A DNA stretch of 64,000 bases from Bacteroidales bacterium (GTDB taxonomy: Bacteria > Bacteroidota > Bacteroidia > Bacteroidales > UBA4181). Where the stretch lies: positions 1 to 64,000 of the forward strand of contig JAFWVY010000066.1 in NCBI GenBank assembly GCA_017523725.1, read 5' to 3'. The notes below the pieces were generated by a model, which saw only the letters and a program-made list of their open reading frames with translations, did not search any database and was not told the DNA's origin. This document shows positions 7,631 through 14,742 of this stretch, piece after piece; within the stretch, counting starts at the first letter, position 1, and every line of letters starts with the position of its first letter. Both the position numbers and the translations under genes were made by a program.

Positions 7631-7836
7631 TGTTTGTCGTTGTTATTGCTGTTGCATTCCGTGAATTCGCGTCCGCCGTTCTCCAGCGCCAGGCGGCGGA
7701 TGTACTCCGTCCTGAGCCGTGCCTTCTCCAGCGTCCGGCCGTGCCCGGCCAATGCCCGCCGCACCGTCGGTATGCTGACGCCGGCCATCCTGGCTACCTT
7801 CTTCATGGCCCCGTAGGGCGTGATGATTAGTGACAT
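7627..7836 (-). CDS. Small HTH protein, first gene of leftward early operon
   Basis: 69 aa. MKKVARMAGVSIPTVRRAL (about residues 11-29) has the spacing of a LacI-type helix-turn-helix, followed by a basic helix and a polar Asn-rich tail. It is the promoter-proximal gene of the leftward operon, divergent from the CI-like repressor, the place of Cro-like or early regulators in temperate phages. That role is inferred. A downstream ATG (residue 11) would leave only the HTH and tail. Confidence 0.65.
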   Translation of the reverse strand: MSLIITPYGAMKKVARMAGVSIPTVRRALAGHGRTLEKARLRTEYIRRLALENGGREFTECNSNNNDKQ

Positions 7837-7843
7837 ATTTGTT

Positions 7844-7851
7844 TATATTTG
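7844..7851 (+). promoter_or_regulatory. Candidate -7 box for the repressor transcript
   Basis: TATATTTG matches the Bacteroidetes -7 consensus TAnnTTTG and faces the repressor gene. A start shortly after would give a leader of about 100 nt that runs through the repeat region. No convincing -33 box is visible. Confidence 0.45.
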
Positions 7852-7880
7852 TACAGATGTTTTAAATCAAAACAACGGGA

Positions 7881-7888
7881 CAAAGATA
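7881..7888 (-). promoter_or_regulatory. -7 box of the leftward early operon
   Basis: On the minus strand this reads TATCTTTG, an exact TAnnTTTG match, with a TTG about 20 nt upstream as a partial -33 element. It is the only good minus-strand promoter upstream of the 69-aa HTH gene and so probably drives the whole replication operon. Confidence 0.65.
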
Positions 7889-7891
7889 CAC

Positions 7892-7909
7892 GCAAATGCG
7901 AACAAATGC
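7892..7909. promoter_or_regulatory. Candidate repressor operator, CAAATGC direct repeats
   Basis: CAAATGC occurs at 7893-7899 and again at 7903-7909, a 10-bp period placing both on the same face of DNA. The pair lies between the -7 box (7881-7888, minus) and the -33 region of the leftward promoter, where a bound repressor would block it. The extended form CAAATGCGAACA recurs at 8118-8129. Confidence 0.55.
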
Positions 7910-7957
7910 AAGCTTTTTACAGAAAATTTACGCAATCGCGAAAAAATATTCAGAGTT

Positions 7958-8614
7958 ATGAAAATAAATGAAAGATTAAGCCTGATAATAAATGAGTTAT
8001 ATAAGGGCAACAAGCGTTCATTTTCTAAACAGATAGGGGTGTCTCCCACTGTTATTGAGAATGTAGTGGGCACAAGACAGGGTAAGCCATCGTTTGATGT
8101 TTTGGAGAAAATATGCTCAAATGCGAACATATCTCCCGAGTGGCTGCTGACGGGAAACGGCGACATGTTGCGTGGCGGACAGGCCAAACCCGGTGCTGTC
8201 ATGTCGTACGACGAGAAGAGCGGCGTGCCGTACTACGCCGTGGACTTCATCGGCGGCTTCGACTTCGTGCTGAACAGCCAGCAGGCGACGCCGGACGCGC
8301 GGATCGTCTTCCCGCAGTTCAACCGCGCGGAGTGCTGGGTGGACATATCGGGCAACAGCATGGAGCCGCTGATATCGTCGGGCGACCTCATCGCCCTGCG
8401 GCGCATAGAGGACTGGCAGGACAACATCCTCTACGGCGAGGTGTACGCTATCGTGACGGACCAGTACCGCACCGTCAAGCGCATACGCCGGTCCGCGCTG
8501 CCGGACCACATACGCCTCGTACCGGAGAATCCGGAGTACGACGCCCAGGACATCGCGTCATCGGCCGTGGTGGCGGTGTTCGCCGTGTTGGGCTGCGCCA
8601 AGAGGATAGGATGA
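7958..8614 (+). CDS. CI-like phage repressor, HTH plus S24 peptidase domain
   Basis: 218 aa. The N-terminal HTH spans about residues 18-66 and ends in ISPEWLLTGNGDM. The C-terminal S24/LexA-like domain has the nucleophile in GNSMEP (S134) and the general base K174 in YRTVKRIRR. Its role is to keep the leftward early operon silent and possibly to self-cleave or be inactivated on DNA damage; no Ala-Gly cleavage pair is seen in the linker (about 72-95), so autocleavage is unproven. The ATG at 7958 was chosen because upstream residues are A+T-rich leader. The HTH half is A+T-rich and the peptidase half G+C-rich, hinting at a mosaic gene. Confidence 0.92.
   Translation: MKINERLSLIINELYKGNKRSFSKQIGVSPTVIENVVGTRQGKPSFDVLEKICSNANISPEWLLTGNGDMLRGGQAKPGAVMSYDEKSGVPYYAVDFIGGFDFVLNSQQATPDARIVFPQFNRAECWVDISGNSMEPLISSGDLIALRRIEDWQDNILYGEVYAIVTDQYRTVKRIRRSALPDHIRLVPENPEYDAQDIASSAVVAVFAVLGCAKRIG
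8118..8130. repeat. Intragenic copy of the operator-like 12-mer
   Basis: CAAATGCGAACA inside the repressor gene (codons about 54-58) is identical to 7893-7904 in the control region. An internal operator could allow looping or autoregulation; coincidence is possible because the copy is coding. Confidence 0.45.
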
Positions 8615-8616
8615 AT

Positions 8617-8624
8617 TATTTTTG
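8617..8624 (+). promoter_or_regulatory. -7 box before the BRO/DinD-like gene
   Basis: TATTTTTG fits TAnnTTTG and begins 3 nt after the repressor stop, leaving a leader of about 12 nt. It would allow the downstream gene to be expressed separately from the repressor. Confidence 0.5.
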
Positions 8625-8642
8625 CCGAAAACATATACCGCC

Positions 8643-9479
8643 ATGTCAAACTCGGAACAGATACAGCTTTTTGAAGACAGACAGATAAGAACAGCCTGGA
8701 ATGAGGCTGAGGGAAAATGGTATTTCTCGATTATCGACATCATTTCCGTTCTCGTGGAAACGGACCGCCCAAGGAAATACTGGGCGGACCTGAAGAAGAA
8801 ACTGGAGACGGAGGGGAGTAAAGTGTCCGAAAAAATCGGACAGTTGAAAATGAAAGCCCCGGACGGCAAGATGCGTCTGACCGACGTGGCCGACCAGGAG
8901 CAGCTCTTCCGCCTCATACAGTCCATTCCTTCGCCCAAGGCTGAGCCGGTTAAGCTGTGGATGGCGCAGGTGGCCTCCCTCCGCATAGACCAGATGCAGG
9001 ACCCGGAACTGAGCATCGGTCAGGCCATCGCCGACTACAGGCGATTGGGCTATAGCGAGGCTTGGATCAACCAGCGCATCAAGAGTATCGAGGTCCGCAA
9101 GGAACTGACCGACGAATGGGAGCGCAGCGGCGTACAGGGGCAGCAGTATGCGTCTCTCACCGACATCATCACCAGGACCTGGAGCGGGATGACCACCCGC
9201 GAATATAAACGGCACAAGGGCCTGAAGAAGGAGAACCTCAGGGACAACATGACCAACATCGAGCTTGCGCTGAACATCCTGGCGGAGGCCTCCACGACGG
9301 AGATATCCAGGCAGCGCAATCCGAAGGACTTTACGCAGAATGCCGCGGTGGCTAAGGCCGGCGGCAATACGGCCAGGGTCGCCCGCGCCCAGCTGGAGAA
9401 GGAGCTCGGCCGCACCGTCATCAGCAGCGACAAGGCGGCGGACCATCTGCTTCCGGGTGAGGACAGCGGCTCAGAGTAA
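8643..9479 (+). CDS. BRO-N/DinD-like antirepressor or damage-inducible protein
   Basis: 278 aa. Residues about 5-110 match the BRO-N fold used by phage antirepressors and DinD (IRTAWNEAEGKWYFSIIDII, then RLTDVADQEQLFRLIQSIPS). The second half (RRLGYSEAWINQRI, KELTDEWERSGVQGQQYASL) is the conserved C-terminal region of DinD-like proteins. By family it could relieve CI repression or act in the SOS response; its place directly after the repressor supports a lysogeny-control role, which is inferred. A TTG at 8622 would add 7 residues but overlaps the putative -7 box, so ATG 8643 is preferred. Confidence 0.85.
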   Translation: MSNSEQIQLFEDRQIRTAWNEAEGKWYFSIIDIISVLVETDRPRKYWADLKKKLETEGSKVSEKIGQLKMKAPDGKMRLTDVADQEQLFRLIQSIPSPKAEPVKLWMAQVASLRIDQMQDPELSIGQAIADYRRLGYSEAWINQRIKSIEVRKELTDEWERSGVQGQQYASLTDIITRTWSGMTTREYKRHKGLKKENLRDNMTNIELALNILAEASTTEISRQRNPKDFTQNAAVAKAGGNTARVARAQLEKELGRTVISSDKAADHLLPGEDSGSE

Positions 9480-9495
9480 CAGGGGAGGATACATC

Positions 9496-9780
9496 ATGCA
9501 GACGGACGACAGCAGGCAGGTGGTGCTGCGTTTCTTCGAGGCGCTGTACGCGCTGAAGGCGGCGCACGCGATACGCGGGAAGAAGACGTTCACCGACCGC
9601 TACGGCATCAACCGGTGGAACATGAACACGCTGGAGAAGGAGCCGTACCGCGACATCTTCCAGCCGGCGTGGCTGACATACCTGGTGCGCGACTACGGCG
9701 TGTCGGCCGAATGGCTGCTGACCGGCGCCGGGGAGATGATGCAGGGGGAAGCCGGAAAGGGGAGAGGGCGGAAGGGGTGA
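9496..9780 (+). CDS. Small HTH protein resembling the repressor N-terminal domain
   Basis: 94 aa. The segment from KKTFTDRYGI to VSAEWLLTGAGEMM parallels the CI-like repressor (NKRSFSKQIGV to ISPEWLLTGNGDML), including the EWLLTGxGxM signature at the end of the HTH, but there is no peptidase domain. It may compete for or modulate the same operators. A purine-rich AGGGGAGGA lies just before the ATG, an unusually good ribosome-binding site for this genome. It is 16 nt after the BRO/DinD-like gene, so the two are probably co-transcribed. Confidence 0.75.
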   Translation: MQTDDSRQVVLRFFEALYALKAAHAIRGKKTFTDRYGINRWNMNTLEKEPYRDIFQPAWLTYLVRDYGVSAEWLLTGAGEMMQGEAGKGRGRKG

Positions 9781-9817: not shown

Positions 9818-9848
9818 TTTGTTTCGCATAAAAATATTCGCACCTTTG
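9818..9848 (+). promoter_or_regulatory. Promoter of the putative small RNA before the NYN gene
   Basis: TTTG at 9818-9821 and CACCTTTG at 9841-9848 are separated by 19 nt, the ideal Bacteroidetes -33/-7 spacing, although the first T of TAnnTTTG is C. Predicted transcription start is about 9853-9856. Confidence 0.6.
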
Positions 9849-9853
9849 CGGAA

Positions 9854-9909
9854 ACAAAGCACCGCCATACTTTCTTGTATGGTTCAAGCCGCTCCTGAAG
9901 CGGCTTTTT
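9854..9909 (+). ncRNA. Putative 56-nt structured RNA upstream of the NYN gene
   Basis: Between the promoter and the NYN start codon lie two back-to-back perfect hairpins: CCATAC/GTATGG (9865-9882, 6-nt loop) and AAGCCGCT/AGCGGCTT (9886-9906, 5-nt loop) running into a T tract. This is the layout of a compact free-standing RNA ending at an intrinsic terminator. Alternatively it is an attenuating leader of the NYN mRNA. No Rfam family is recognised. Ends are estimated from the promoter and terminator. Confidence 0.5.
9886..9909 (+). terminator. Intrinsic terminator before the NYN gene
   Basis: An 8-bp perfect stem with loop CCTGA is followed by TTTTT (9905-9909), of which the first two bases belong to the stem. 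It lies 14 nt before the NYN start, so full-length NYN mRNA requires readthrough or a start inside this interval. Confidence 0.7.
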
Positions 9910-9923
9910 ACTTTAAATAGCAT

Positions 9924-10604
9924 ATGGACAAAAAGAGAGTGACCTTCTACGTGGACGGCTTCAATTTCTACTATGGCCTAAAGCGCAAAAAACAAGTGGA
10001 TATCAAATGGAAACGGTACTATTGGATAGACGTCGTAAAGTTTTTTGAACAATTCATCGGCCATGACCAAATACTGTCAAGGGTTATTTACTTCACGGCA
10101 TCCCCTCTTGACCCGAATGAAAGCAGTCGCCAAAGTGCCTTCTTAAATGCCAATTCCATTCTTCATCCAGACACATTCCAGATAGAACGGGGTAAGTATA
10201 TTAATAAGCCGATAGAGTGCCCTAATTGCCATTTTGCCATCAATCGTCCGGAAGAAAAAAAGACGGATGTCAATCTTTCCGTCCGCATGATGGGGGATTG
10301 CTTCAAAAACGAAACCGACATTGTGGTACTTGTCAGTGCGGATACCGATTTAATACCGCCTATAGATTTTATCCTGAAAAACTTTCCCGATAAAAGAATC
10401 AAGGTCTACTTTCCTCCGACAAACCACAGCTCTGATATTGATGGCTATATGAAGGCGCATAAATCGAAGATCGTTAGACTGGAGGCTAGCGAGGTAAAAT
10501 TTAGAAACGCTATTATGCCGGACAATGTTACTGTAGGGGCGAGTACTTACAAGATCCCGGAAAAATGGAAAATCCCAGGTGAGAACTTCTCGGCCGCAGA
10601 ATAA
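9924..10604 (+). CDS. NYN-domain (PIN-like) ribonuclease
   Basis: 226 aa. The NYN/LabA-type fold is shown by VTFYVDGFNFYYGL (D11, N14) at the N-terminus, KKTDVNLSVRM (D115) in the middle and VVLVSADTDLIPPI (D140, D142), which supply the acidic metal-binding set. CPNC at 99-102 suggests a partial zinc knuckle. Such proteins are metal-dependent RNases; the family's physiological targets are mostly unknown. It is much more A+T-rich than the flanking phage genes, pointing to separate acquisition. The only RNA signal upstream is the two-hairpin unit at 9854-9909. No ribosome-binding site is evident. Confidence 0.85.
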   Translation: MDKKRVTFYVDGFNFYYGLKRKKQVDIKWKRYYWIDVVKFFEQFIGHDQILSRVIYFTASPLDPNESSRQSAFLNANSILHPDTFQIERGKYINKPIECPNCHFAINRPEEKKTDVNLSVRMMGDCFKNETDIVVLVSADTDLIPPIDFILKNFPDKRIKVYFPPTNHSSDIDGYMKAHKSKIVRLEASEVKFRNAIMPDNVTVGASTYKIPEKWKIPGENFSAAE

Positions 10605-10852: not shown

Positions 10853-11224
10853 ATGAAGGCGAGTAATTACATACGGATTCAAAAAAACAAAATTGAAGCC
10901 GCACTTGATGTGTTTGTATATAAGAAAGACGGGGTGTTTTATGCATATTCCCCTGCCCTGGATTTGGTTGGATACGACTATACGGAAGATGGCGCAAAAG
11001 AGTCCTTCGGGGTCGTAATGCAGGATTTCTTTGAATTTGGAATAAAGCGCAATACCCTTGAAGCAGATTTGACCAGTCACGGATGGAAAGAAGAGAAGAA
11101 ATCCGAATTTGAGATTCCGAATATCTGGGCGGTTCTTGCAAATAGCCCGGAAGGGAATAAGCTGGCTCTTACACAATACGAAAAAACATCCGTTCCCTTC
11201 GAACACGAACTCGCTTACTGCTAA
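10853..11224 (+). CDS. hicB: HicB-like antitoxin
   Basis: 123 aa. The N-terminal half has the degenerate RNase H-like fold of HicB: EAALDVFVYKKDGVFYAYSPALDLVGYDYTE arranged in strands, then a helix EDGAKESFGVVMQDFFEFGI. The C-terminal part shows no clear DNA-binding motif. It would neutralise the downstream HicA RNase and perhaps autoregulate the pair. Its stop overlaps the hicA start in TAATG, so the two are translationally coupled. Antitoxin-first order is the reverse of the classical hicAB layout. The identification rests largely on the pairing with hicA. Confidence 0.75.
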   Translation: MKASNYIRIQKNKIEAALDVFVYKKDGVFYAYSPALDLVGYDYTEDGAKESFGVVMQDFFEFGIKRNTLEADLTSHGWKEEKKSEFEIPNIWAVLANSPEGNKLALTQYEKTSVPFEHELAYC

Positions 11225-11460
11225 TGGGCAAATTCGGCAACATTTCCATAGCAAGATACAGGCGAATCCTCGCCAAGCTAGGGCTGGAGTTTGTAAGGAC
11301 AAAAGCCGGACACGAAATGTGGTACAAAGAGGGGATGATGCGGAACGTGGTTTTCCAAACGCATGTTGACCCTGTGCCGGAAGATATTGTCTCTAAAAAC
11401 AATAAAACAATCGGAGTTTCAAATGCGGACTTTGAAGCTGTCCTGAAAGAAGTAAAATAA
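11224..11460 (+). CDS. hicA: HicA-type mRNA interferase toxin
   Basis: 78 aa, the normal HicA size. The dsRBD-like fold is seen in the helix YRRILAKLGLEFVRTKAGHE, with H30 at the place of the catalytic histidine of the GSH motif, followed by the strand MWYKEG and a basic segment. NVVFQTHVDPVP matches the family's second strand. It is a ribosome-independent RNase that degrades mRNA when free of HicB. It starts on the last base of the hicB stop codon. A hairpin with a T-rich tail follows at about 11483-11513. Confidence 0.85.
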   Translation: MGKFGNISIARYRRILAKLGLEFVRTKAGHEMWYKEGMMRNVVFQTHVDPVPEDIVSKNNKTIGVSNADFEAVLKEVK

Positions 11461-11574: not shown

Positions 11575-11582
11575 TATTTTTG
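11575..11582 (+). promoter_or_regulatory. -7 box just before the ImmA/IrrE gene
   Basis: TATTTTTG, an exact TAnnTTTG match, ends 8 nt before the ATG at 11591, implying a leaderless or nearly leaderless mRNA. No good -33 element at the usual spacing. Confidence 0.55.
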
Positions 11583-11590
11583 TGCGGAAT

Positions 11591-12697
11591 ATGGCCGTAA
11601 GGATTGATATCGCAGGTAACATGCTCGAATGGGCTATCACTCGGGCCGGCTATTCTTTGGGACAATATCTAGAAAATAGCCAAGATGTCGCAGCTTGGGT
11701 GAGGGGCGAAAAAAAGCCGACGATAAAACAGCTGGAGGCTTTTGCAAAAGGGCTTCATGTGCCTTTCGGCTATCTGTTTTTGCAGAAGCCGCCGGTTGAG
11801 AAATCTCCGATTCCTTTCTTCAGGGGCGGAGCCAACAGTGGCGACCTTGATCTCAACACATATGACACGGTTCTCGATCTTCAGCGCCGACAGGAATGGC
11901 TGGTAGATTATTTGAGCGAGAATGATTTTGAAAAAAAAAGCTTCGTGGGATCGATGCAGGGCTGCAACTCCGCCGCCGACTTAGTGTCCACGGTGCGAAA
12001 GTTACTCGGTCTGGAGCCGACATGGGCTTTCTCATTTCACAGTAATGAGAGCGCCGTCAATCATGTGGCCGAGCTGTTTGAGGAGCTTGGTATTGTTGTT
12101 ACATTCAACGGGGTAGTAGGAAATAATACGCGCCGGCCGATTGATGTAAATCAGTGCAGGGGATTTGCTCTCGTCGACGACATGGCCCCCTTCATCTTCG
12201 TAAACAGCGCGGACAGCAAAACGGCTCAGCTTTTCACGTTAATACATGAGTTCGTTCATCTGCTCCTCGGTGTCAGCTCCGGGTACGGCGGGAATAACGG
12301 CTTTGAAGGGGACAGCACTGAGAGACTTTGCGACAAAGCCTCCGCAAACTTCCTGGTTCCAGAGGATGCGCTCAGGGCAAACTGGACGAATGTCGAACAG
12401 ACGGCAAAAAAATTCAGGGTGAGCGGACTGGTCGTAGCCAGGCGCGCGAAGGATGTGGGCCTTATTACAGGGACTCAATTCAAGGATTATTACGCCGGTT
12501 ACCTGGCAAGGCCCGTGCAGGACAAAGCCCGCCGCTCCGGCGGCGACTTTAATCTCGTCGCAAGGAAAAGGATAGGGATAACATTTGCTGTTTATGTCCA
12601 TAACGCTGTCAGGACAAGCCAGCTGTCTCAGGTTGAGGCATACAGGCTCACGGGGCTCTACGGTAAGACTTATACCAATTTTATGTCTAAACTATAG
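11591..12697 (+). CDS. HTH-ImmA/IrrE family metallopeptidase, putative antitoxin
   Basis: 368 aa. An XRE-like HTH occupies about residues 11-64 (QDVAAWVRGEKKPTIKQLEAFAKGL). The ImmA/IrrE zinc protease core has HExxH as HEFVH (H219-E220-H223) and a downstream E244 in the STERLCDKASANFLVP segment as third ligand. Relatives cleave repressors during stress or serve as antitoxin-regulators. It is followed after 12 nt by a PIN RNase gene, a recurrent pairing. The ATG at 11591 was chosen because it follows the -7 box; upstream in-frame codons overlap that promoter. Lower G+C than the phage genes. Confidence 0.9.
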   Translation: MAVRIDIAGNMLEWAITRAGYSLGQYLENSQDVAAWVRGEKKPTIKQLEAFAKGLHVPFGYLFLQKPPVEKSPIPFFRGGANSGDLDLNTYDTVLDLQRRQEWLVDYLSENDFEKKSFVGSMQGCNSAADLVSTVRKLLGLEPTWAFSFHSNESAVNHVAELFEELGIVVTFNGVVGNNTRRPIDVNQCRGFALVDDMAPFIFVNSADSKTAQLFTLIHEFVHLLLGVSSGYGGNNGFEGDSTERLCDKASANFLVPEDALRANWTNVEQTAKKFRVSGLVVARRAKDVGLITGTQFKDYYAGYLARPVQDKARRSGGDFNLVARKRIGITFAVYVHNAVRTSQLSQVEAYRLTGLYGKTYTNFMSKL

Positions 12698-12709
12698 GGG
12701 CTGGAGTTG

Positions 12710-13201
12710 ATGGCGTACTTGTTAGACACGAATATTTTGATAGAGGCGAAGAACAAAATGCCCTTTGATCTGTTTCCCTCATTTTGGACTCGGCTAGGAG
12801 AGCAAATTGCGGCCGGGAAGGTGTTTTCAAGTGTAAAAGTAAGGGAGGAGATAGAGAGGGGCAACGATGATGATCCGCTTATCCAATGGCTGGATGATCT
12901 TCCGGAAACATTCTTCCTTCCTTTGGACGGCAACATATTGGCTGAATATGCAGTGCTGATTAATTGGGCGAACTCGAATACCCGATACAAGCCCGCGGCA
13001 AAGGCGCAGTTCGCCAGCGCTGATGTCGCCGATGCCTTTTTAGTCGCGACATCTGCTGCAAAGGACTTAATTCTTGTTACCCATGAAGTGCCAGAACCCA
13101 AAAGCCAAAAGAGCGTCAAGATTCCAGATGCCGCCAACGTGCTCTCAGTCAAGTGCTGTACATTGGTTGAGATGCTCCGCTCTTTGGGCGTTACAATTTA
13201 G
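12710..13201 (+). CDS. DUF4411 PIN-domain ribonuclease, putative toxin
   Basis: 163 aa. PIN catalytic acids are present: LLDTNILIEA (D6, E12), KVREEIERG (E48) and ASADVADAFLVATA-like ASADVADAF (D105, D108), with a final VTHE strand. DUF4411 proteins are full length at about 160 aa, so the gene looks intact. It lies 12 nt after the HTH-ImmA/IrrE gene and is probably its operon partner, forming a toxin-antitoxin-like unit in which the upstream protein restrains the RNase. An adjacent TTG at 12707 could serve as start one codon earlier. Its stop codon abuts a converging kinase gene relic. Confidence 0.88.
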   Translation: MAYLLDTNILIEAKNKMPFDLFPSFWTRLGEQIAAGKVFSSVKVREEIERGNDDDPLIQWLDDLPETFFLPLDGNILAEYAVLINWANSNTRYKPAAKAQFASADVADAFLVATSAAKDLILVTHEVPEPKSQKSVKIPDAANVLSVKCCTLVEMLRSLGVTI

Positions 13202-13367: not shown

Positions 13368-14516
13368 TTAATCTGTCGGCATTATGTCCGGAATTGCCGC
13401 CACCGCTGCCTGCTTGTTCTTGTCCAGGACGCGGGCGTATATCTGCGTCGTGGTGAGTTTCCGGTGGCCGAGGAGTTTGCTCACGGTGTAGAGATCCGTG
13501 CCGAGGTCGAGCATCATCGTCGCGAAGGTGTGGCGTGCGCAGTGAAACGTGATCGTCTTGTTTATCCCGGCCCGTGCGACCCACTCCTTTATCACGCTGT
13601 TCGTGTAGAAGGGCGTGTGGATGTCCGGAAAGACCGGATCCCCGGGAGCCCCCTCCGTCCCCATCAGGTTGCGGGCCTGCGCAGTGATGTCGAGGTATTC
13701 CTGTCCGCCCGTCTTTTTCTGCTGGAAGATGATGCGGGTGAAGTCTCCCTGGCGGTGCACCTGGCTCCAGGTGAGCCGTTCGATGTCGCTCCGGCGCAGC
13801 CCCGTGAGACAGCTGAAGAGGAAGGCCGCCTTGACGGCCGGGAGCTTGCATTCCGTCGCGGCGAGCTGTCTCACCTCATCTACGGTAAGGTACATGCGCG
13901 TAGCGTCTTCGGCCTTGAACCCGGCTATCCCCCGGAGCGGGTTTACGGAGATGATGCCTTCGTTGTACGCGGAGTTGATACAGGCCCGCAGCTTGTTGAA
14001 GTAGCACATCTTGCTGTTCCGGGACAGAGGCGCGTCCTTCCGCCGCTCCCGCACGTCGTGTTCCCACGCCTTCGCGTCGTTTTCGAGATAGTCCTTGAAG
14101 CCCTTTATCCAGGCCGGCGTTATGTCGGCGAAGGTTATGGATTCCCGTCGCTCATATTTTTTCAGGTGATGGAGACAGCTGCGCCAGTTGCCCCAGTTGT
14201 CCCGGCTTTCGGTGCTGATGCGCCTTTCGCAGAGCATCCGGTAGTAGTCAAAGAAGCGGATGTCTGCCGCTGCCTGCCGCTGAAATCCGAACTGGCCGTT
14301 GCGCAGTTCGACGAGACGCTTCGCCCGCACCGCCTCGGCGAGCTGGAGCGTCTGCCGGTTCGCCTCCTTGTCGGCCCTCGTCCGTTCCGGGACGAGATAT
14401 AGTTTAAGGTATTCGTACGAGCGCCGTCCGTCAAGATATATGTCAAGATACAGGCTTTCACGCCCGGAGGGGGTGACGCGCCGCCTGAGCCGGATTGGTT
14501 CTTTGCTTTGTCCCAT
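13368..14516 (-). CDS. Tyrosine recombinase/integrase
   Basis: 382 aa, Bacteroidetes phage/transposon integrase type: N-terminal arm-binding segment (about 8-80), SAM-like core-binding domain (about 85-185) and catalytic domain (about 205-375). The full active-site set is present: R241 in TGLRRSDI, K268 (QQKKTGG), H325-x2-R328 in HCARHTFA, H351 in LLGHRKLTTTQ and nucleophile Y360. It inserts and excises the element and is the rightmost element gene before the core chromosome. The ATG at 14516 was chosen; an open frame reaches 14714 but those residues are Thr/Ala repeat and leader translation. Confidence 0.93.
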   Translation of the reverse strand: MGQSKEPIRLRRRVTPSGRESLYLDIYLDGRRSYEYLKLYLVPERTRADKEANRQTLQLAEAVRAKRLVELRNGQFGFQRQAAADIRFFDYYRMLCERRISTESRDNWGNWRSCLHHLKKYERRESITFADITPAWIKGFKDYLENDAKAWEHDVRERRKDAPLSRNSKMCYFNKLRACINSAYNEGIISVNPLRGIAGFKAEDATRMYLTVDEVRQLAATECKLPAVKAAFLFSCLTGLRRSDIERLTWSQVHRQGDFTRIIFQQKKTGGQEYLDITAQARNLMGTEGAPGDPVFPDIHTPFYTNSVIKEWVARAGINKTITFHCARHTFATMMLDLGTDLYTVSKLLGHRKLTTTQIYARVLDKNKQAAVAAIPDIMPTD

Positions 14517-14742
14517 TGTTGCCGTGGTTGTTGCTGTTGTTGCTGTAATTCTGTTCGAGCAACAAATGAACAACAAAAGAATGACAACTCCAATATATGG
14601 CGGGCGATAAATAAGATTTTTTTGCGGCGGTGGCGTTATGTTGTGAATCAGCGCTGAATTTAATATATTTTGTATTATTTTTGCATCTGAGTTATCAAAG
14701 CCCCCCTTGGGCATTAGTTATCTAACCGAAAAATAAACCGAT
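14517..14742. other. Element-chromosome junction region
   Basis: 226 nt without a gene. Next to the integrase ATG the minus strand carries a CAACAACAG-type repeat (14518-14552), an unstructured leader. Bases 14640-14690 are A+T-rich and hold the sirtuin promoter. GCCC/GGGC (14699-14714) forms a short hairpin. The right attachment site probably lies here, but its core cannot be defined without the left end. Confidence 0.45.
14676..14683 (+). promoter_or_regulatory. -7 box of the sirtuin gene
   Basis: TATTTTTG, followed by GC, is an exact TAnnTTTG match; predicted leader about 53 nt. A -33 TTTG at the right spacing is not seen. Confidence 0.55.

Follow-up and report, generated by a model that had tools for sequence, protein, structure and literature searches.

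A small structured RNA encoded beside an HEC-09 NYN ribonuclease: a candidate type III-like toxin–antitoxin module

A compact unit, in which a promoter of Bacteroidota type is followed by a hairpin and an intrinsic terminator, can be read directly from positions 9818–9923 of the window (the whole 64,000-nucleotide stretch of Bacteroidales DNA analysed here), ending 14 nt 5′ of a gene for an NYN-domain ribonuclease. The pairing of such a small RNA with an NYN nuclease recurs in bacteria, plasmids and phages of several phyla. We consider it probable (about 0.7) that the two form a type III-like toxin–antitoxin module, in which the RNA would be the antitoxin and the NYN RNase the toxin.

The RNA gene and the nuclease in the window

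Both promoter elements are found in the sequence with the 19-nt spacing given in a preliminary description of this DNA (Table 1), and the −7 element, CACCTTTG, has one mismatch to the consensus TAnnTTTG. A sigma-70 scan of the locus found no promoter, as is expected for the lineage of the host. The transcript predicted downstream agrees with the ~56-nt RNA proposed there, and the terminator lies where it had been placed, 14 nt ahead of the nuclease start, with its T-run reaching 9909 and the ATG at 9924. RNAfold returns exactly hairpins 1 and 2 at −21.5 kcal/mol (z = −3.8), with one of 200 shuffles folding as well; hairpin 2 starts two nucleotides after hairpin 1. Both had been called perfect; both make up the predicted fold, but the word is slightly generous for hairpin 1, because its stem of six Watson–Crick pairs closes with a G–U pair.

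Table 1. Features of the window locus and orphan class A RNAs (orphan positions refer to their own records).
Feature	Position	Strand	Details
Bacteroidota-type promoter of the RNA	9818–9848	+	TTTG 9818–9821 (−33), 19-nt spacer, CACCTTTG 9841–9848 (−7)
Predicted small RNA, class A, ~56 nt	9854–9909	+	Fold z −3.8, covariance model R1, covariation
Conserved unpaired 5′ motif AAAGCACCGC	9856–9865	+	Family AAGCAnCGC; near-invariant columns in alignment A2
Hairpin 1	9864–9883	+	Stem 9864–9870/9877–9883; near-invariant loop UUUCUU 9871–9876
Hairpin 2 and T-run, intrinsic terminator between RNA and NYN	9886–9909	+	Stem 9886–9893/9899–9906, eight pairs
NYN-domain ribonuclease, 226 aa, HEC-09 family	9924–10604	+	Pfam PF01936 E 1.2e-8; PADLOC HEC-09 E 1.1e-48
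Orphan class A RNA L187	963–1023		R1 65 bits; phage contig
Orphan class A RNA L188	820–881		R1 62 bits; Mu-like phage, TTGACA-18-TATAAT promoter ahead
Orphan class A RNA L185	7460–7519		R1 50 bits; phage contig, 134 kb
Orphan class A RNA L166	8256–8313		R1 53 bits; phage or prophage, without NYN gene

The terminator alone is not rarer at this locus than in shuffles of the region; a single terminator is therefore unremarkable, and the case rests on comparison. What lies beyond chance is conservation with covariation, together with recurrence across the family. Neither the window locus nor the RNAs of 20 related loci gave an Rfam covariance-model match that reached the gathering score. The covariance model R1 matches positions 9854–9914 with 75.3 bits (E = 4.6e-17); R1 and a second model, R2, are scored partly on their own training sequences, the window being among those of R1, and the E-values are rough.

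The nuclease matches the HEC-09 profile over its full length (residues 4–216 on profile positions 2–203 of 203). In alignment A4, residues D11, D115, D140 and D142, which we take to be the NYN/PIN acidic site, are invariant, and C99 and C102 are near-invariant. An AlphaFold2 model of the protein has a pLDDT of 91; its nearest solved sequence relative is 2qip (E = 5e-5), and a Foldseek search of the model against the PDB gave weak Rossmann-like matches only (TM ~0.3), which are uninformative. A weak phmmer match to KwaB (E = 0.04) was also seen. HEC-09 (PADLOC PDLC04163) is a candidate defence family, HEC standing for Hma-embedded candidate (PMC12111858), and in one study it correlated with phage susceptibility, not resistance (PMC12447246). 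In PLSDB, 406–436 plasmid records carry similar NYN proteins, with Klebsiella accounting for about half. At one locus (L124), a structured region with a terminator (1388–1497) lies directly upstream of an NYN gene of a type that is found on KPC and other Klebsiella and E. coli plasmids (~200 records).

The locus has a GC content of 42% against ~57% around it and appears to form part of phage cargo, flanked by a repressor/BRO region and an integrase, in keeping with its earlier description as mobile cargo of foreign base composition. The flanking genes, an S24 repressor, a BRO-N protein and a phage-type regulator (7820–9780) on one side and a tyrosine integrase (13368–14714) on the other, are likely to mark the end of a prophage that holds its integration and immunity functions. 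Two other likely toxin–antitoxin pairs adjoin the locus. Two short adjacent ORFs at 10853–11460 resemble a HicB/HicA-type pair, the second matching a PHROG that carries a toxin annotation (E = 2.6e-5); at 11576–13201 a Peptidase_M78 (ImmA/IrrE-like) gene is followed directly by a DUF4411 gene, probably a further toxin–antitoxin or defence pair.

Conservation of the RNA across the nuclease family

A scan of the collection yielded two closely related nucleases, at 79% and 75% identity, and a search of 393 genomes yielded further ones; a single-sequence protein search of viral contigs gave no match, and an alignment-based search of the same contigs gave 55 loci. The RNA of the window (class A) is present at both close loci, at those of two relatives with 58% and 63% identity and at further viral loci; it precedes homologous nucleases of 55–79% identity. 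Among 11 aligned class A sequences, both sides have changed in 8 of the 13 stem pairs, and the paired share of cells is 99.3%, compared with 25–51% when the partner is slid (0 of 500 shuffles). In hairpin 1, both sides change in four of the six pairs counted, with 100% of cells paired; in hairpin 2, in four of seven. The preliminary description had proposed to look for the double hairpin, with covariation, ahead of NYN homologues; both hairpins are kept there, with compensatory changes. Variation falls on the stems, with the 5′ motif (AAGCAnCGC) and the loop sequence UUUCUU almost constant, a pattern that would be expected of an RNA bound by protein. A pseudoknot between CUU of the loop and AAG of the 5′ motif was considered and rejected, its pairing being lost in L063 and L066. 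Of the ten other class A loci, nine have the −7 element TAnnTTTG in the corresponding position; in the exception (L003) the promoter is absent and the RNA stands directly behind a tRNA-Asp gene. Flanking genes are not common to the class A loci, except in two related phages, which indicates that RNA and NYN gene form a portable unit.

Other RNAs built on this plan accompany more distant nucleases, and two of these types likewise have compensatory changes. Class B, which like the viral RNA types was grouped by eye, has the loop AUGAGAAA, and in its hairpin 1 five of six pairs change on both sides. Class C has the loop UAGCA, with both-side changes in 9 of 12 pairs and 93.3% of cells paired (38–47% slid). 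The class C RNA is transcribed away from the nuclease, Thermus included; in Bacteroidota it has a TTTG element resembling −7, and in a Thermus plasmid the promoter is TTGACA-17-TTTAAT. In classes A–C we found no variable unpaired stretch fit to serve as a guide; the unpaired segments are conserved and the paired stems vary, so the RNA-guided action suggested earlier is unsupported.

The RNA accompanies the NYN gene family-wide. A same-strand terminator ends ≤60 nt from the start in 53 of 73 nucleases (<90% identical, with complete upstream DNA) and in 16 of 200 control ORFs (Fisher p = 1e-25), the controls being other ORFs of the same loci, called mechanically, which limits the comparison. Seventeen of the other 20 nucleases have a divergent terminator unit (35 of the 184 controls without a same-strand one), which leaves only 3 of 73 with neither; a strict first-ATG version, made as a conservative check, gives 42 of 85 against 16 of 245. 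The RNA types track the phylogeny of the nucleases: class A occupies one supported branch and class C another. Four changes suffice for the RNA labels on the nuclease tree, where shuffles need ~32, the class B labels having been set by eye.

These comparisons bear on a further reading of the window locus, in which the terminator simply ends a transcript from upstream, the other hairpin is there by chance and the pairing with NYN is a coincidence. It would fit with the frequency of single terminators in shuffled sequence and with the four terminators that lie within 3 kb, but is contradicted by the covariation in classes A, B and C, by the family-wide enrichment over controls and by the scarcity of strong R1 matches, which occur in only 4 of 393 genomes, three of them at NYN loci (matches below ~40 bits were treated as generic terminators). 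We regard this reading as very improbable.

Repeat arrays and orphan RNAs

In the window the RNA is a single unit and not an array. On a 4.6-kb E. coli plasmid (L121), four hairpin repeats of 29–33 nt are followed by a terminator and then the NYN gene, the last repeat differing through paired changes in its stem. Four or five repeats are found in E. coli and Klebsiella plasmids; five occur on two plasmids otherwise ~99% identical over the locus, the repeats being gained in whole units. Three phage loci (L100, L105 and L107) have three two-hairpin units each. An array followed by a terminator and the NYN gene is, by analogy, the layout published for type III toxin–antitoxin systems (PMC8860590, PMC12373285).

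RNAs without a nuclease also occur. The fourth R1 genome match (53 bits) is in a Mu-like prophage, and the protein search found no such NYN in that genome. For the pattern scan for orphans ~20 chance matches were expected, by our own estimate from information content and an assumed collection size; we therefore kept only matches in which R1 also gave a score for the terminator half, and set L186, L194, L195 and L196 aside. No NYN was found in the records of L185, L187 and L188 (Table 1), which may be fragments. R2 gave 43 matches over 395 Bacteroidota genomes, about half of them divergent beside NYN; the others are mostly from one genus and without NYN, and two of those examined keep short NYN-like scraps. 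The class C orphans L172 and L181 lie beside such scraps, which suggests that the nuclease was internally deleted and the RNA kept. In one genome (G111, contig C5; L006/L029) an intact class A RNA adjoins an NYN gene that is broken into two frames, and intact copies of this NYN occur in other genomes. Orphan RNAs and lost nucleases indicate that the RNA can outlive its nuclease, as expected of an antitoxin. Some orphans may be decayed loci, or may double as terminators of the preceding gene; that those in phages are decoys is a guess.

The preliminary description had offered a free-standing RNA and attenuation of the nuclease as alternatives. A purely cis-acting leader, which the nuclease binds or cuts, or whose terminator tunes NYN by attenuation with no role in trans, would explain why the terminator stands directly before the start codon in 53 of 73 loci, as in attenuators, and an RNase could autoregulate. 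The divergent RNA of the class C clade, Thermus included, argues against attenuation, and tandem repeats and orphan RNAs without NYN also speak against a leader; we judge it improbable and favour the free-standing RNA.

Alternatively, the RNA could be a stable component that the nuclease needs, in a sensing or guiding ribonucleoprotein where the RNA activates or directs NYN. Conservation of the loop and the 5′ motif points to tight contact with protein, HEC-09 is itself a defence candidate, and such RNAs are used by other defence systems (retrons, PMC12548924). We nevertheless find this unlikely: a variable unpaired segment fit for a guide is missing, the copy-number change by whole repeats fits inhibitor dosage, and an inhibitor also fits better with the orphan RNAs, which occur in phages and where nucleases have been lost.

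Proposed function and relation to known systems

That structured RNA and RNase make up a two-part system, as first proposed, is strengthened by hairpins conserved with compensatory changes in homologues; its function, as regards transcript, binding, toxicity, neutralisation, trigger and defence, we infer to be that of a toxin–antitoxin module. A short structured RNA would be made from its own promoter, mostly stopping at the terminator, and a little NYN ribonuclease would be made by rare read-through or, in the divergent clade, from a separate promoter. Contacts made by its conserved loop and 5′ motif would let the RNA bind the nuclease and keep it inactive. Should transcription fail, for example on phage infection or loss of the element, the RNA would decay first, and the freed nuclease would cut RNA, leading to abortive infection or maintenance of the element.

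HEC-09, a widespread and unexplained defence candidate, thereby gains the RNA partner that it lacked, along with a mechanism that can be tested, and to test its protein alone is to test half a system. There is perhaps an even chance that the HEC-09 NYN proteins are the toxins of a large cross-phylum superfamily with RNA antitoxins (in single, array and divergent layouts), a superfamily that hundreds of enterobacterial plasmids carry and that phages counter with decoy antitoxin RNA. If confirmed, the module would add the NYN fold to the RNA-neutralised toxins ToxN, AbiF and AvcD and would suggest a natural RNA counter-defence in phages.

The type III systems ToxIN, CptIN, TenpIN and AbiQ likewise combine structured RNA repeats, an intrinsic terminator and an RNase gene, reside on plasmids and phages and vary in repeat number (PMC8860590, PMC12373285); their terminator between RNA and toxin gene is found here in 53 of 73 family members. 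The present module, with repeat arrays at some loci and a single unit in the window, would work like a type III system, yet lacks the ToxN fold: by Pfam NYN and HEC-09 the toxin is an NYN (PIN-like) nuclease and not of the ToxN/AbiQ fold. Unlike ToxI, its RNA units are plain hairpins, the pseudoknot between loop and 5′ segment being unsupported, and unlike ToxN-based systems there is often one unit only, and one clade has a divergent RNA gene. The prophage-borne toxin AbiF/RCd22 is also preceded by a small RNA (abiF RNA, Rfam RF03085), which has its own promoter and terminator and neutralises the toxin as in type III systems (PMC12373285); AbiF is however an Abi_2/AbiD/F protein, not NYN, and the abiF RNA model has no match here. 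AvcID shows that a type III-like RNA antitoxin can go with a non-ToxN toxin, but its toxin is a deoxycytidylate deaminase, its active antitoxin RNA is longer and no terminator is predicted between the parts (PMC10511110). By profile our nuclease is a full-length member of HEC-09, which in PADLOC is a protein model alone, unlike the RNA and NYN pair described here. In the open full-text literature, a scope that excludes bioRxiv, the HEC preprint (doi 10.1101/2024.01.29.577857) and most subscription papers, we found no NYN nuclease joined to an RNA antitoxin and no mention of an RNA partner of HEC-09; with this scope priority is not proved. A CRISPR-associated NYN ribonuclease also places an NYN RNase in an immunity context, but differs in being tied to CRISPR (PMC11346440).
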